In this document: piece after piece, positions 3,082-29,910 of the stretch
How positions within the stretch are numbered: position 1 is the stretch's first letter
Layout of the letters: each line of letters starts with the position of its first letter
Virus record (IMG/VR): IMGVR_UViG_3300004457_000309
Span: 1 to 29,921 of that record
From: a virus
Strand: one strand, 5' to 3'
Length of the DNA: 29,921 bases
The notes under the pieces: generated by a model
Databases searched by the model: none
What the model saw: the letters and a program-made list of their open reading frames with translations, nothing else
Told to the model about the DNA's origin: nothing
Program-made: the position numbers and the translations under genes

Positions 3082-4101
3082 CTATTTGCGAGAGTGTAGT
3101 TCTTTTTGTGCGAGTTTTGCTTGATCGTAGTAGTGCAAGACCTCCGACCATATGAGATCAGCATCCTCTCGGATCTTCTTGATGTCGATCTTCTGCTTTC
3201 CCAAGTCAACACACCAAAACCTCCGGGAGCCTGTCGCATCGTGCAAGACGTTCTTCTTGTTCGTGGTTGCTACGAATACAGTACGACGAGGAAATTTCTC
3301 GTTGCTCCTCTTGTATGGGAGTCTGACATCGTCGATCTTTCTTGTGAGAAAAGCTTTCTCTACCTCAACAGACTTTGATCGTCTTGCTAGCTCTTGGATC
3401 TCATAGATCAGTTTGCCTTGTATACTCTGCACTGCTTCCTTATACTTGTCCATGTTGATCTCTGAGTCTCCGAAGTACCGAGATCCAAAGATCAAGAAGA
3501 AGCAAAGAGCCTCAAGTGCTGTGCTCTTTCCGATACCTTGGCCTCCGTACAAGACAAGCGTCGTATCGACCTTGACCGGCCTATGTACTGTTGCATGTGC
3601 TCGAGCTACTACAGACAGCAGGAAGCGAAGAGAATAGGCTCTATTGATCGGTGTGTCCTCTGCTCCCATGTAGTCAATGAGGAATCGATGTGCTCGCTCT
3701 TTGTCCCCCTTCCTCCATTTGTACCGTATATTCTCGAAGTGCTCAAGAATAGGATTGACGCGATTCTCTTTTGCTACGAGCTCGACCGCAGACCATACCT
3801 TATCCGCAGTGAAAGCTACCCCCCATCGATCCTCACACTCGAGCCGGATCATGTCGATGTGATAGTCTGCAACAGTCTCGACTTGGTTATGCTCATTCCT
3901 CCACATAACGAGCTGAGCAAAGTCGTCATACTGTGCTCTCTCTCGGAAGCTAGGATAATGTCTCAGGAGTTGCGTCACGTTGAAAAGCGAGCCAAGTACT
4001 CTGTCTCCTGAGTCTGTTCTCCGGACTCGTATCTCAAAGCCGAGATTCTGCAATGCGACGATTCTTGCATCCTGATTGTGTAGTCTTTGTGTGTTAGTCA
4101 T
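3082..4101 (-). CDS. VapE/VirE-type P-loop ATPase, probable replicative helicase
   Basis: The 339-residue protein matches the virulence-associated E (VapE) family of phage and island helicase-like ATPases. Walker A is GGQGIGKST (186-194); LIYEIQELA (231-239) carries the acidic Walker B region; VFVATTNKK (275-283) is the sensor strand; GSRRFWCVDL (291-300) is the arginine-finger region typical of the family. It is shorter than primase-helicase fusions because the primase is encoded separately by the upstream gene. Start ATG 4101 follows CAGGAGACAAC. The expected role is DNA unwinding at the phage origin, working with the primase and the small gene downstream. Confidence 0.85.
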   Translation of the reverse strand: MTNTQRLHNQDARIVALQNLGFEIRVRRTDSGDRVLGSLFNVTQLLRHYPSFRERAQYDDFAQLVMWRNEHNQVETVADYHIDMIRLECEDRWGVAFTADKVWSAVELVAKENRVNPILEHFENIRYKWRKGDKERAHRFLIDYMGAEDTPINRAYSLRFLLSVVARAHATVHRPVKVDTTLVLYGGQGIGKSTALEALCFFLIFGSRYFGDSEINMDKYKEAVQSIQGKLIYEIQELARRSKSVEVEKAFLTRKIDDVRLPYKRSNEKFPRRTVFVATTNKKNVLHDATGSRRFWCVDLGKQKIDIKKIREDADLIWSEVLHYYDQAKLAQKELHSRK

Positions 4102-6389: not shown

Positions 6390-6613
6390 TTCTTTGTCTC
6401 CTCATTCTTTGTGTATGCTGTGCATGTAGGCTCTTCTTTTTTGTATATCCATTCTTTCGGATACTCTGGCTCATCTGTATCGTGGAGCATTGTCATCATG
6501 ATAATCTCGCAAGGATTCTCTTCTGTATCATGCTTGCAATTTACGCAATGTTTCTCGAAAAACCACATTCCCTCTGTTCCGCTTGACGGTCTATATTTCT
6601 TTTGTTCACTCAT
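6386..6613 (-). CDS. Small cysteine-rich (probable zinc-binding) protein
   Basis: The 75-residue protein contains CVNCKHDTEENPCEI (23-37) and a single late Cys in PTCTAYT. Four Cys in a CxxC...C...C arrangement suggest one structural zinc, a pattern common in small phage proteins of unknown function. Both ends overlap neighbours by ATGA, and GGAGACAAAGAA precedes the start at 6613. It probably acts early with the other small genes of the operon. Confidence 0.7.
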   Translation of the reverse strand: MSEQKKYRPSSGTEGMWFFEKHCVNCKHDTEENPCEIIMMTMLHDTDEPEYPKEWIYKKEEPTCTAYTKNEETKK

Positions 6614-6876
6614 TTCTTTGTCTCCTGTTTTATTTTTATTGCTCCATTAAAATCCCCTTTGAGATACTCTTCCCAAGGATCTTTTGTTTGTATACTTATT
6701 TGTTCTTGTTGTTGGTTCTCTTCTCTGATCTTCTTGATCTTCTGCTCGAGTATCCATCCGAGTTGATACGGATGTGCTGACTCTTTGACGAGATCATGCA
6801 CTGCTTGGATCTCTTCGCTCGTCTTGGCGTTCTGTACCATGAGAGCGATCATCTTCGGGCTGATGTGTATTTTCAT
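6610..6876 (-). CDS. Hypothetical helical protein
   Basis: The 88-residue protein is nearly all helix, with a Gln/Glu/Lys-rich centre (residues 45-62) likely to form a coiled coil. No family recognised. Start ATG 6876 uses the recurrent leader GGAGACTACA-ATG, shared with five other genes, and its stop overlaps the next gene. Confidence 0.65.
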   Translation of the reverse strand: MKIHISPKMIALMVQNAKTSEEIQAVHDLVKESAHPYQLGWILEQKIKKIREENQQQEQISIQTKDPWEEYLKGDFNGAIKIKQETKK

Positions 6877-6885
6877 TGTAGTCTC

Positions 6886-7431
6886 CTATGCTGCTATTTT
6901 TGTTTGAAAGACATACTCTGAGCAATGCTTCATGCAGATGTCTTTTGCTTGTTCGATTGTGAGAGATCCGTCTGCTATCATCTTCTTGATGTTGGGATAT
7001 ACATCATCACAATCAAATTGATCTCCGAGAGGCTTCTTGTATTGTGAGCTATAGTGCACAGTGAAGAGAAACTCAATGATCGACTTTGCTTCTTTGAGAG
7101 ATACTTTGCTCCCGAAGTATTCGAGCACAGTCTTTCTCTCTGGCTTGACGACGAGAGTATAACAGACATGCTTAGGAAGAGAGAGAGCCTTCTGCTTCTT
7201 CTTTGGCTTTGGCTCTGCACTGAGCATTTGATTAAGTATCTCTTGATTGCTGATGATAAAGTCTGAGTGCTCAATCGCGTCTGTCATTGCTTCATAAAGT
7301 GTATCATACACTCCTGAAACCTCTCCTTTGCATACAAGAGAGACTCCTGTCTCTGTTCCGATTGTATGAAAGTCCTCGAGCATGTCGAAAGCAATAACTG
7401 CATTATTAAATTGGTGTACTGTGTATTTCAT
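6886..7431 (-). CDS. Hypothetical protein, first gene of the early operon
   Basis: The 181-residue protein starts at ATG 7431 after GGAGACTACA; the longer in-frame reading crosses the promoter and has no ribosome site. It has an alpha/beta N-terminal half, a Lys-rich linker near residues 88-100 (PKPKKKQKALSLPKH) and a mostly helical C-terminal half. No motif recognised. As the first gene behind the early promoter it will be among the first proteins made. Confidence 0.7.
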   Translation of the reverse strand: MKYTVHQFNNAVIAFDMLEDFHTIGTETGVSLVCKGEVSGVYDTLYEAMTDAIEHSDFIISNQEILNQMLSAEPKPKKKQKALSLPKHVCYTLVVKPERKTVLEYFGSKVSLKEAKSIIEFLFTVHYSSQYKKPLGDQFDCDDVYPNIKKMIADGSLTIEQAKDICMKHCSEYVFQTKIAA

Positions 7432-7471
7432 TGTAGTCTCCTTTTTGTGTCCTTTCTTTGTCTCTCTCCTT

Positions 7472-17335: not shown

Positions 17336-17354
17336 TGTAGTCTCCGATGTATAT

Positions 17355-20189: not shown

Positions 20190-20204
20190 TGTAGTCTCCA
20201 TAAC

Positions 20205-20268
20205 AAAAAAGAGTTGGGAGATCGCAGAGCCCGGAGACTACAGGATTTGAACCCTGCAACCTCCCAAC
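20205..20268 (-). terminator. Capsid-gene terminator with large loop carrying an anti-Shine-Dalgarno sequence
   Basis: On the minus strand, 15-base arms at 20254-20268 and 20213-20227 pair without gaps (13 Watson-Crick and 2 G-T pairs) around a 26-nt loop, followed by TC and six T. It lies 13 bases after the capsid stop. The loop centre is TGTAGTCTCC (20233-20242), the exact complement of GGAGACTACA, the leader before the genes at 29857, 25005, 20189, 17335, 7431 and 6876. The long 3' hairpin is therefore both a terminator and a possible source of a regulatory RNA; the second role is inference. Confidence 0.75.
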
Positions 20269-20280
20269 AAAACGATCAGA

Positions 20281-21255
20281 TTAACGCTTGCTTAGCAATT
20301 TTACTCCGCGAGCGTCTTCGATGATTCCAAGTCCGAGATAAGCGTGACCTACGATGAAGGTACTTGCTGACATAGGACGACGATCAAACTCGACAACAAC
20401 CTTACCCATAGACATAAGATCAGCAGATCCCTGTACACCGGAAGGAATACCATCGACAAAGCCGAGAGCCATCGGAGAAATCATAAAGTTGTCGAATCCG
20501 GAAGAAGCATTTTCGTTCACGTGAGCCGAGCGATAGACATCACAACCGAATAAATTTCCTGCGAAGTTTTCGCCTTTGGCCTGCAACATGTCCATTGAGG
20601 ACTGCATACGAGATACTGCGTTTCCAGTCTCATTGCGCAAAGAATCTTGAAGCTCGGTTAATGCTTTTGGCGCGAGTACACATGCGTATGGGCCGGGAGC
20701 ACCAGCACCAGAAGAAGCTTGCTCAAGCTCAAAGATAGCGTCAAAGAAGTCGTCTACTGAGAGAGTAGTTGTGTTTGCTCCCGCTGTAGTTGTGAAAGAC
20801 GCTGCTGCTGCTCCTGTGAGCTCTGCAAAACGAGTCTCGTAACTTCCTGCAATGCTTTGAGCGATGCGGAAAGGATCGATATCAGATCCACCGAATCCTG
20901 TCATTGATGCGAGATCGTCCATTTCATAAATAATGAATTGTCGAGCGGCTACAAGATCAGCACTGTTAATTGTTAGTGCTGTAGTATTTGCGGATTCGTC
21001 TGAGTTTTCAGAAGTTGCTGCGGACATGCTATCATATCCATCGAGCCCGGCCAATCTAACTCGTACGGTATCACTACCACTAGAATTTATTGATCCTTGG
21101 TAGCTCAATAAAGGAGTATTTCGAAGGTTTGTATTGTCTTTTAACAGGAGATTGATCTCTTGAGAAATCATCGCTGCGAGTCTTAATTTGTCTACAAGTC
21201 CACCAGATAAGGGACTTCCTACGCTATCAAACGTAATAGGCTTTGTTGTTGCCAT
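20281..21255 (-). CDS. Major capsid protein (HK97-like)
   Basis: The 324-residue protein starts at ATG 21255 (GGAGCCTATC upstream). It has an N-terminal helical arm (MATTKPITFDSVGSPLSGGL, then LRLAAMISQEINLLL), a segment compatible with the HK97 spine helix and P-domain around ARQFIIYEMDDLASMTG, and a late FAGNLFGCDVYRSAHVNENA with FDNFMISPMALGFVDG, typical of capsid A domains. Gene order (scaffold and accessory genes upstream, connectors downstream) fits. It has its own promoter, an 80-90 base leader with a small hairpin (21308-21325) and a dedicated terminator, consistent with high separate expression. Confidence 0.8.
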   Translation of the reverse strand: MATTKPITFDSVGSPLSGGLVDKLRLAAMISQEINLLLKDNTNLRNTPLLSYQGSINSSGSDTVRVRLAGLDGYDSMSAATSENSDESANTTALTINSADLVAARQFIIYEMDDLASMTGFGGSDIDPFRIAQSIAGSYETRFAELTGAAAASFTTTAGANTTTLSVDDFFDAIFELEQASSGAGAPGPYACVLAPKALTELQDSLRNETGNAVSRMQSSMDMLQAKGENFAGNLFGCDVYRSAHVNENASSGFDNFMISPMALGFVDGIPSGVQGSADLMSMGKVVVEFDRRPMSASTFIVGHAYLGLGIIEDARGVKLLSKR

Positions 21256-21656: not shown

Positions 21657-23366
21657 CTAGTACCAATACCATATAAGAACACCGTCACCATTAGAGAGAT
21701 TACCTCCGAATGTCACAGTAGATCCTGAGATACTGAATTCGTCTTCGTCAGCAGGAGTGTCCCCGAGAGCTGTCATGTTGCGGAGAGACAGACCGTTCTT
21801 AAATACAAGTACAGAGTTGATGCTGTTACTTGTCAATGATTGACCTAGAGTGAGAGTTGATGTGCTCCCTCCTGATACTTGGAATCCTTCCTGTGCGAAA
21901 GTGATTCCGAGTTTTGCAGCAGTCACAGAAGAAGATCCGAGCTTGTCAGAAGTTACAGAACCACTAGCGAGAGCAGTCGTTCCAACAGCACCGGAGGCAA
22001 TCTTTGCAGATGTCACAGAAGCAGCGGCAATCTTTCCGGAAGAGATAGCAGAGTCTGCGATCTTTGCGGTTGATACAGCAGCGTCAACGATCTCTGCAGT
22101 GTCTACAGCGTTGTCGTCGAGCTTTGCATTTGTGACTGCATTGTCTGCGATCTTGCTTGCGTCGATAGCAGTCGATGCGATCTTGGCTGTAGTTACAGCA
22201 CCGTCAGCGAGCTTTGCAGTCGCAACAGCATTGTCAGCAAGTTTTGCTTCAAGTACAGAAGCAGAACCAAGAGCAGCAGATCCGACAGATCCGTCGATGA
22301 GCTCGTTTGCTCCCACAGAATCGTCAGCCATTTTTGCATTAGAGATTGAAGAGTCTGCGATCTTTGCACTGGTGACATTAGCGTCGATAATCTTGGCAGT
22401 CGATACAGAACCGTCAGCAAGCTTTGCAGTTGTGACTCCTCCGTTTGAGATGCTGATATCATCGCCATTTTTCTCGAGTCCACCTGAGACTGTGACTGAG
22501 CCGAGCCCGGTGAATCTTTGGAATTCGATGTTATCATTTCCAAGATTCGGAGCTGTGTCGTTTATACAGACAAAGCCTTGATTGTCGAAAGTGTTACCTT
22601 CAAGAGCAAAGAGAAAAGCTCCGGGAAAGTCATCACCTGCATCCATGTCTGTAGTACGAGACATTGCATTGTTAGAACCCGCGAAAGAATAAACTCCGTT
22701 ATCCTCTTGGTCTGTCTGGCCGAATAACAATACACGATCACCGTTAGACAAAGTGACTCCGTCAATGCTCGCAGGAGCAGAAGTCAGATCGACATTGCTA
22801 TCGCTAGCGACTCGGACGTTTTCTTTAACAGAGAGTCCAGCTGCGACAGAATCGACGTAGCTCTTATTCGGAACATCGTTGCCATTGCTCGGAGTGCTTA
22901 CTTGAAGAGTGCCGCCTGTGAAATCATAAGTGTCTGTCAAGTCAAGTTTTGAAGCGTCAACAGCATCGGCAGCGATCTTCGCTGTTGTTACTGCTGCGTC
23001 GTTGATCTTGGCTGTCTCGACTGCGGAGCTTGCGAGTTTGGCCGCTGAGATAGCAGAGTCTGCGAGCTTGGCTGTTGATACGGCAAGAGACGCAATCTTT
23101 GCTGTGTCTACTGCGTCGTCAGCAAGTTTTGCTGTCAATACTGCTCCGTCAGCAATCTTTGCAGATTCGACAGAAGAAGCACCGAGCTTTCCTGCTGTGA
23201 CAGCTCCGTCGTTGAGTGCTGCGGTCAATACTGCGGATGAACCGAGTTTGCCTGATGTGATTGCTCCTGATGCGATCTTGACTGATGTCACTGCATCGCT
23301 TGCGATTTTTGCTGCCACGATTGCCGAATCGACTATCTGACCGCCTTTAATTTGTACTGATCCCAT
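21657..23366 (-). CDS. Fiber-like protein with two blocks of decapeptide repeats
   Basis: The 569-residue protein has an exact 10-residue period (type ADxAVTTAKI) over residues 11-140 (13 units) and again over about 307-488 (18 units). Between them residues 165-310 form a domain with AAGLSVKENVRVAS, GDRVLLFGQTDQEDNGVYSF and a strand series ending FQRFTGLGSVTVSGG, which occurs in many phage fibers. The C-terminal 65 residues (LTLGQSLTSNSINS onward, ending VLIWYWY) are a small beta cap resembling the product of 23748-23966. It lies among head genes ahead of the capsid gene, so a head fiber is as likely as a tail fiber. ATG 23366 follows TAGGAGTATCTCTC. Confidence 0.75.
   Translation of the reverse strand: MGSVQIKGGQIVDSAIVAAKIASDAVTSVKIASGAITSGKLGSSAVLTAALNDGAVTAGKLGASSVESAKIADGAVLTAKLADDAVDTAKIASLAVSTAKLADSAISAAKLASSAVETAKINDAAVTTAKIAADAVDASKLDLTDTYDFTGGTLQVSTPSNGNDVPNKSYVDSVAAGLSVKENVRVASDSNVDLTSAPASIDGVTLSNGDRVLLFGQTDQEDNGVYSFAGSNNAMSRTTDMDAGDDFPGAFLFALEGNTFDNQGFVCINDTAPNLGNDNIEFQRFTGLGSVTVSGGLEKNGDDISISNGGVTTAKLADGSVSTAKIIDANVTSAKIADSSISNAKMADDSVGANELIDGSVGSAALGSASVLEAKLADNAVATAKLADGAVTTAKIASTAIDASKIADNAVTNAKLDDNAVDTAEIVDAAVSTAKIADSAISSGKIAAASVTSAKIASGAVGTTALASGSVTSDKLGSSSVTAAKLGITFAQEGFQVSGGSTSTLTLGQSLTSNSINSVLVFKNGLSLRNMTALGDTPADEDEFSISGSTVTFGGNLSNGDGVLIWYWY
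21903..22448 (-). repeat. 30-bp coding repeats, block 2
   Basis: About eighteen units of the same decapeptide type lie after the globular domain. A few units lose the Lys (GSAALGSA, DTAEIVDA, TTALASGS), suggesting either breaks in the fiber or older copies. Confidence 0.8.
22947..23336 (-). repeat. 30-bp coding repeats, block 1
   Basis: Thirteen 30-bp units encode decapeptides of the type (I/L)ADxAVxTAK, with Lys at every tenth residue through most of the block. The DNA copies are imperfect, so the array is kept by protein selection as well as duplication. Copy number could change by recombination. Confidence 0.8.
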
Positions 23367-25005: not shown

Positions 25006-25021
25006 TGTAGTCTCCTATTGG

Positions 25022-29197: not shown

Positions 29198-29857
29198 TCA
29201 TGCCTTCTTGAGTGCGACGACATTGGAGCCGACAAGACTATGCAGATCCGCTTGGACTCTTTGTCTCAGGATCGGAGGCAGTGCAATAATCGTGTTGACG
29301 ATCTCGGACATGAGCTGCTCGTCTGTCATTCTCTCATGTGCGTCGATTGCTCCCTCTTCTGCATCGTATGTTTTGAGAGCTTGCATCATTGTTATCAGCT
29401 GTCTCTGCAAGGCTGCGTATGCTTGCCATGATCCGGAGTCTTTTGCTTTCGTCATCGATTGCTTGAGCTCTGATATTTGGATTGTCAGCATCGTCCGATA
29501 ATCAAGAGTGTCTGTGCTCTTGTGTGTCTCTTCTTCTGCTTCTGGGATTGCGTGCTGTGCATCGTTCTTGTATCCATGTCTCCGAGACAGGAGCCACATT
29601 GCAGACTTGACATCTCCTTCCTGTATGGAATGTGTGATCGTCTCGAGTGCTGTCATTGCAGCATGAGCATCCGCAGCTCGGACACGTTCTGCAAAGTTTT
29701 TAAAAATCTTCTGTGCTCGAGGCTGCTCTCCTTTGGCAATCCATTTGTAAATCGTTGACCGGCCGACTCCGGCCACGTCAGACGCAATCTGCATTGTCGC
29801 GCCAGTCCTCAAAGCTTGGATTATTTTTTCTTGGCTCTCTTGTAATTTTTTGCTCAT
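29198..29857 (-). CDS. terS: Terminase small subunit
   Basis: The 219-residue protein has an N-terminal helix-turn-helix (MQIASDVAGVGRSTIYKWIA, 22-41) for binding the packaging site, a central oligomerisation part (KSAMWLLSRRHGYK near residues 84-97) typical of small terminases, and a helical C-terminal part for TerL contact. ATG 29857 is preceded by TTAGGAGACTAC, the recurrent leader whose last base here is the A of the start codon. It is the first gene of the late transcript and lies beside the terminal repeat, as expected for a cos-flanking gene. Confidence 0.85.
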   Translation of the reverse strand: MSKKLQESQEKIIQALRTGATMQIASDVAGVGRSTIYKWIAKGEQPRAQKIFKNFAERVRAADAHAAMTALETITHSIQEGDVKSAMWLLSRRHGYKNDAQHAIPEAEEETHKSTDTLDYRTMLTIQISELKQSMTKAKDSGSWQAYAALQRQLITMMQALKTYDAEEGAIDAHERMTDEQLMSEIVNTIIALPPILRQRVQADLHSLVGSNVVALKKA

Positions 29858-29910
29858 GTAGTCTCCTAATATTTTTGAAAAAAATCTGTACGTTTCTTTA
29901 AAAGCTCGCG

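Follow-up and report, generated by a model that had tools for sequence, protein, structure and literature searches.

A predicted bistable RNA at the 3′ end of a phage capsid message is a candidate base-pairing regulator of late genes

The window analyzed here, the whole stretch of DNA under study, is a 29.9-kb record from an uncultured tailed phage in which almost all genes lie on the minus strand, as do all window features given below. The major capsid gene (HK97 fold) occupies 20281–21255, with its stop codon at 20283–20281, and its message is the source of the RNA described in this work. An earlier note, made from the sequence alone, had named this gene and several of its neighbors, and the names fared unequally. 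The capsid assignment held: 14 of 36 family members match the PHROG major head protein, an encapsulin match was found as well, and an AlphaFold model with 36 sequences as input has moderate confidence and matches HK97-fold capsids. TerS held too, and the TerS-family protein contains a helix-turn-helix (HTH). The names "scaffold" and "tail chaperone" have less behind them. The former was given only from position and a coiled-coil look, and the latter (g17335) only from position, with one weak match in a family search; function searches found no convincing family for g17335 or for g20189, the gene after the capsid gene. A gene at 21657–23366, placed between head genes and capsid gene, encodes a fibre-like protein with many imperfect AVTTAKIADGAV-type repeats.

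Downstream of the capsid stop codon, we distinguish four segments and a U-run. Segment x (GATCGT, 20272–20277) sits 4 nt past the stop codon and is followed by segment a, the 5′ arm of a hairpin (20249–20268), segment b, the anti-leader TGTAGTCTCC (20233–20242), and segment c, the 3′ arm (20213–20232). When a pairs with c, b lies in the loop, and the U-run (20205–20210) follows 2 nt past the stem in the layout of an intrinsic terminator. The region from 20268 to 20205 folds with z = −4.1. The hairpin had been reported at these coordinates with a 15-bp stem and a 26-nt loop; its position and loop sequence were reproduced, while the best fold has a 20-bp stem and a 16-nt loop. Rfam covariance models gave no match to the window at the gathering threshold, and no sigma-70-like site that could serve as an independent promoter for the RNA was found close upstream on the minus strand. 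We also considered a tRNA or attP site, as GGTTCAAATCC (20240–20254, GGGTTCAAATCC) resembles a tRNA T-arm. ARAGORN detected no tRNA and relatives do not keep the likeness, which is probably a coincidence.

The complement of the loop, GGAGACTACA, had been proposed as the leader of six genes, and all six copies proved exact and directly 5′ of the starts at 29857, 25005, 20189, 17335, 7431 and 6876. They precede the TerS gene (29857–29866, the last A being part of the ATG), the putative scaffold gene (25006–25015), the gene after the capsid gene (20190–20199), the tail-region gene g17335 (17336–17345), and two early genes at 7431–6886 (leader 7432–7441) and 6876–6610 (leader 6877–6886). Apart from these, the window contains one more exact copy, which is the loop itself on the opposite strand. 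Allowing one mismatch yields 15 matches against 1.97 expected, a count that 0 of 100 shuffles reach. The early leaders at 6613, 6389, 4101 and 1441 carry the partial forms GGAGACAAAGAA and GGAGACAAC, which pair with the loop over about 6–8 nt.

To compare the element between phages, we gathered relatives by capsid searches, which returned about 80 uncultured phages, mostly genome fragments, and set gene starts in all loci by a simple Shine-Dalgarno (SD) rule. A capsid search for cultured relatives found none; cultured relatives identified by terminase are distant, at 25% identity or less among the matches listed, and a search of a genome collection surfaced one distant MAG contig (L088) from which the loop is absent. 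In clade A, to which the window belongs, every relative with a complete region has a hairpin 3′ of the capsid gene. Its stems vary; what stays constant is the core of the loop, TAGTCT(C/T)C, together with the leader downstream. Across 67 clade-A loci, 149 of 158 coding-strand copies of the leader motif GGAGACTAC lie no more than 8 nt from a start codon, and the opposite strand holds 63 copies, roughly one per locus, as the loop predicts. The U-run is present in 34 of 37 unique clade-A sequences (absent in L057, L059 and L061) and is not obvious in clade C. Given these gaps, termination cannot be essential everywhere.

Four of the six window leaders are conserved as targets in clade A: those of the post-capsid gene (55/58), g17335 (30/33), the putative scaffold gene (23/33, the other 10 pairing weakly) and TerS (11/16, the other 5 pairing weakly). 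About 20 other late gene families lack the leader motif, and among the other late families of clade A one leader overall pairs strongly (g19540, 1/52). The shorter GGAGAC is common to many other leaders, which pair at about −10 kcal/mol. Control of early genes, which the earlier note had also put forward, was not supported: neither the leader at 7431 nor that at 6876 is conserved as a target, and in the two relatives carrying these genes neither counts as a strong one. Anti-loop leaders, complete or almost so, do occur at differing small early genes elsewhere, at 10616 in L102 and 8778 in L105 (both on the reverse strand) and at 3350 and 4309 in L107, all positions being given in coding-strand orientation. 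Early targets look as if they were gained independently in different genomes.

Loop and leaders change together between clades. We found matched loop/leader pairs in four clades, GTAGTCTCC/GGAGACTAC in clade A, CATGTCGGTTCC/GGAACCGACATG in clade B, GTTCTCC/GGAGAAC in clade C, and TATCCTGTTTT/AAAACAGGATA in L084, and the co-change falls on the same orthologues. In clade B, whose capsid is about 55% identical, the loop is CATGTCGGTTCC and leaders include AGGAACCGACATG, AGGATACCGACATG and AGGAATCGACATG; what is conserved there is ACCGAC, the spacer that separates SD and AUG, while SD distance varies, a pattern that ordinary SD conservation does not explain. Clade-B leaders tolerate G-U-compatible and bulged forms. 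Strong pairing in this clade involves g17335 (8/9), the post-capsid gene (7/12), scaffold (2/6) and TerS (2/5), with extra strong matches at one MTase and two g23966 leaders. The GC-rich clade C has leaders GGAGAACA and pairs strongly at the post-capsid gene (4/4) and scaffold (1/4). L084, with leaders AAACAGGAAA and AAAACAGGATA, carries less weight, being represented by one genome whose sequence is U-rich and A-rich. In the distant relatives L085–L088, L093 and L094, hairpins are present and no matching loop was found.

Each clade's motif is linked to starts in its own clade and is rare or not start-linked in the others. In a matrix of predicted duplexes, each loop pairs best with the leaders of its own clade, although a shuffled version of the clade-B loop reached 42 leaders of clade A and the clade-C loop scores 25 on clade A, the motif being partly shared. 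Because shuffled loops sometimes score well, we place the weight on orthologue specificity. Relatives that keep the stem and lose the match would have spoken against a function of the loop; within the family, the match is kept and leaders follow loop changes, and only the distant relatives lack the loop. The predicted loop–leader pairing and its target set are borne out by this comparison, and the co-change supports the proposal of a regulatory RNA at the 3′ end of the capsid message that is aimed, by base pairing, at several translation starts.

Clade B carries a further leader-like copy (for example AGGAATCGACATA or GGGACCGACTAA) 36–46 nt before the post-capsid start, in 12 of 12 loci (L066, L069–L078 and L083). 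It lies between the U-run and the real leader, has no start codon, and can pair with b and partly with arm c. It is possibly a local decoy.

Close inspection of the same region revealed a second fold, absent from the earlier note, that is mutually exclusive with the terminator hairpin. In prediction the RNA is bistable: in state 1, a pairs with c and b is exposed, and in state 2, a pairs with b while x pairs with c, hiding b. When the folded RNA stops at the last base of b, clade-A sequences form an a:b hairpin of about 8–15 pairs, and once c is added most relatives fold x:c around a:b as a long alternative. The x/c pairs of relatives differ in sequence (AGATCGC/GCGGTCT, AGACTG/CAGTCT, GATTCGC/GCGAGTC, GACTTG/CAAGTC, GATCATGA/TCATGATC and ATTGATA/TATCAGT), x and c co-varying. 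We compared own with permuted partners rather than counting pairs by column, because the aligner misplaces x; for x:c, a:c and a:b alike, own partners did better than permuted ones (0 of 2000 each) in this partner permutation, which ignores kinship. State 1 mostly places the stem 2 nt from the U-run, and state 2 mostly 8 nt.

Segment x governs which fold is predicted. With its own x, b is hidden in 85% of sequences, compared with 2% with a shuffled x and 35% with a foreign x. Masking x exposes b in 35 of 35 sequences, with a predicted exposure of 0.63–0.97, and flips the predicted fold in 30 of 35. State 1 is preferred even with x free in the window and four other sequences; in the window the states are 1.3 kcal/mol apart, with state 1 slightly favored. 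Throughout clade A, L061 aside, x starts between 2 nt before and 4 nt after the last base of the stop codon, and arm a starts 8–15 nt downstream of the stop codon. Clade B has its stop codon farther upstream, with x not at the stop, so a trigger set by the stop codon does not transfer directly to that clade. Comparison between relatives upholds the two predicted folds and the x–c pairing.

Taken together, we favor, at a probability of about 0.65, a reading in which the capsid mRNA ends in an RNA switch with two states that represses the translation of a few late genes by base pairing. Repression, action in trans and the trigger are what we infer from this arrangement. In state 1, the intrinsic-terminator hairpin would hold the anti-leader b in its loop, where it could pair with the SD and spacer of the TerS, putative scaffold, post-capsid and tail-region messages, and in clade B with their AUG as well. 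Such pairing would block initiation, acting in trans from a 3′ end released by termination or processing and acting locally on read-through transcripts. In state 2, b would be hidden and the stem would stand about 8 nt from the U-run, permitting read-through with the repressor off. A ribosome with a stop codon in its A site covers about 9–10 nt beyond it, so a ribosome terminating at the capsid stop would mask the greater part of x, with most of a left accessible. Either that ribosome, or cleavage in the U-rich linker between x and a, would remove x and shift the RNA to state 1.

Abundant capsid synthesis would then favor state 1 and lower the output of assembly factors needed in small amounts. 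Position and partial annotation suggest that three of the four targets, TerS, scaffold and a tail-assembly protein, are needed in small or transient amounts, if they are correctly named. The virus probably turns down its assembly helpers through production of its shell, as judged from sequence comparison. We advance more tentatively, and with greater doubt than conviction, the complete circuit, in which ribosomes that complete capsid translation refold the 3′ end of the message into a terminator, the loop exposed by it acts in trans to shut off TerS, scaffold and other assembly factors, and virion stoichiometry is set by RNA alone.

The strongest alternative, though an unlikely one, confines the element to cis: b would have a single partner, the leader of the following gene (20189), and would set that gene's translation relative to capsid, while the TerS, scaffold and g17335 leaders would share a strong ribosome-binding site. 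The post-capsid leader is indeed the most conserved partner and lies about 35 nt downstream of b, and the three clade-A sequences without a U-run would not need a free RNA. Yet the other three leaders follow loop changes, spacer included (ACCGACATG in clade B and AAAACAGGATA before g17335 in L084), while some 20 other late families are without the motif, and a cis-only element offers no reason for this pattern.

Less probable still is a reversal of direction, in which the leaders of TerS, scaffold or g17335, when no ribosome occupies them, capture b, prevent a:b and force the terminator fold, so that the switch senses their translation and controls downstream read-through. Arm a resembles the leader (GGGAGACTGC and GGAGACTAC), meaning that leader and a would compete for b, and the two states do differ in terminator layout. 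However, leader RNA would have to reach b within the brief interval that polymerase needs to clear the U-run. Nor do all relatives have a U-run, and for the most part the leaders would be acting over long range from within a single long mRNA.

We consider it very improbable that loop and leaders are sites for a single DNA- or RNA-binding protein, with complementarity a by-product of inverse orientation. A double-stranded DNA site would also give inverse-orientation copies, and the TerS-family protein does contain an HTH, but the motif keeps one orientation and a fixed place at start codons, occupies the loop of a hairpin that is conserved, accepts G-U-compatible and bulged leader forms in clade B, and is specifically hidden by the second fold. 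Finally, an ordinary terminator next to ordinary strong SDs, with incidental complementarity, can be set aside: SDs are purine-rich, terminator loops may be CU-rich by chance and GGAGAC is frequent among leaders of the window phage, but the 0/100 shuffles, the motifs linked to starts clade by clade and the own-clade pairing reject a chance match, and co-change in several clades, extension past the SD and orthologue specificity argue further against it.

The favored reading, a two-state repressor at the capsid 3′ end, combines features of several known systems. Bacterial small RNAs derived from 3′-UTRs are made from mRNA 3′ ends and keep the terminator. The CcsR or "cuckoo"-type small RNAs of alphaproteobacteria carry CU-rich anti-SD hairpin loops with a generic CCUCC-type motif; the placement of an anti-SD sequence in a hairpin loop is similar, whereas the specificity here runs through the spacer and differs between clades. 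Attenuators of the trp-leader type have mutually exclusive hairpins, one of them a terminator, and a gating segment that a ribosome can cover. The present element shares the exclusive hairpins, in prediction, and has a candidate gating segment, but is sited past the stop of a structural gene, and its alternative fold also hides the antisense seed.

Among phage RNAs, the c4 antisense RNA of P1 and P7, which has related RNAs in N15, P4 and PhiR73, blocks a ribosome-binding site through target-complementary loop segments and acts on an antirepressor operon in immunity (PMC12197685). Both are phage RNAs that present a target-complementary segment in a loop against a ribosome-binding site; here the source is the 3′ end of a capsid mRNA, several late genes are targets, and a second fold hides the seed. 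We recognized no antirepressor-like gene beside the element, whose neighbors are the capsid gene and a gene without a convincing PHROG match. The nearest precedent for targeting multiple leaders is the IIR transcript of PLE, the phage satellites of Vibrio cholerae, a non-coding RNA antisense to the leaders of several ORFs of its own element; its authors also cite P1, P7, N15, P4 and PhiR73 (PMC7567579). IIR lies between inverted repeats; a capsid 3′-UTR source, a bistable fold and loop–leader co-variation are features of the present element that the available text of that paper does not describe for IIR. Phage PhiKZ makes an RNA of about 100 nt from the PHIKZ298 3′-UTR, terminator kept, and the available text of that study reports no targets (PMC8545117), whereas here the candidate targets are conserved late genes of the phage itself. 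Phage RNAs complementary to leaders are thus already known; in the open-licence literature, we came across no account of a capsid 3′ end alternating between an exposed, multi-target antisense terminator and a hidden form.

Ribosome-site strength, translational coupling and frameshifting are the usual explanations for how tailed phages balance shell protein against transient helpers of assembly in a late operon. Comparison among the relatives points here to an RNA circuit by which the capsid message would exert control over other late genes, through an element that is widespread in a phage family known solely from metagenomes. The loop–leader pairs of several clades are natural orthogonal variants for reporter work. 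If the complete circuit advanced above more tentatively is true, virion stoichiometry would be set by RNA alone, through a structural-gene mRNA that senses its own translation.
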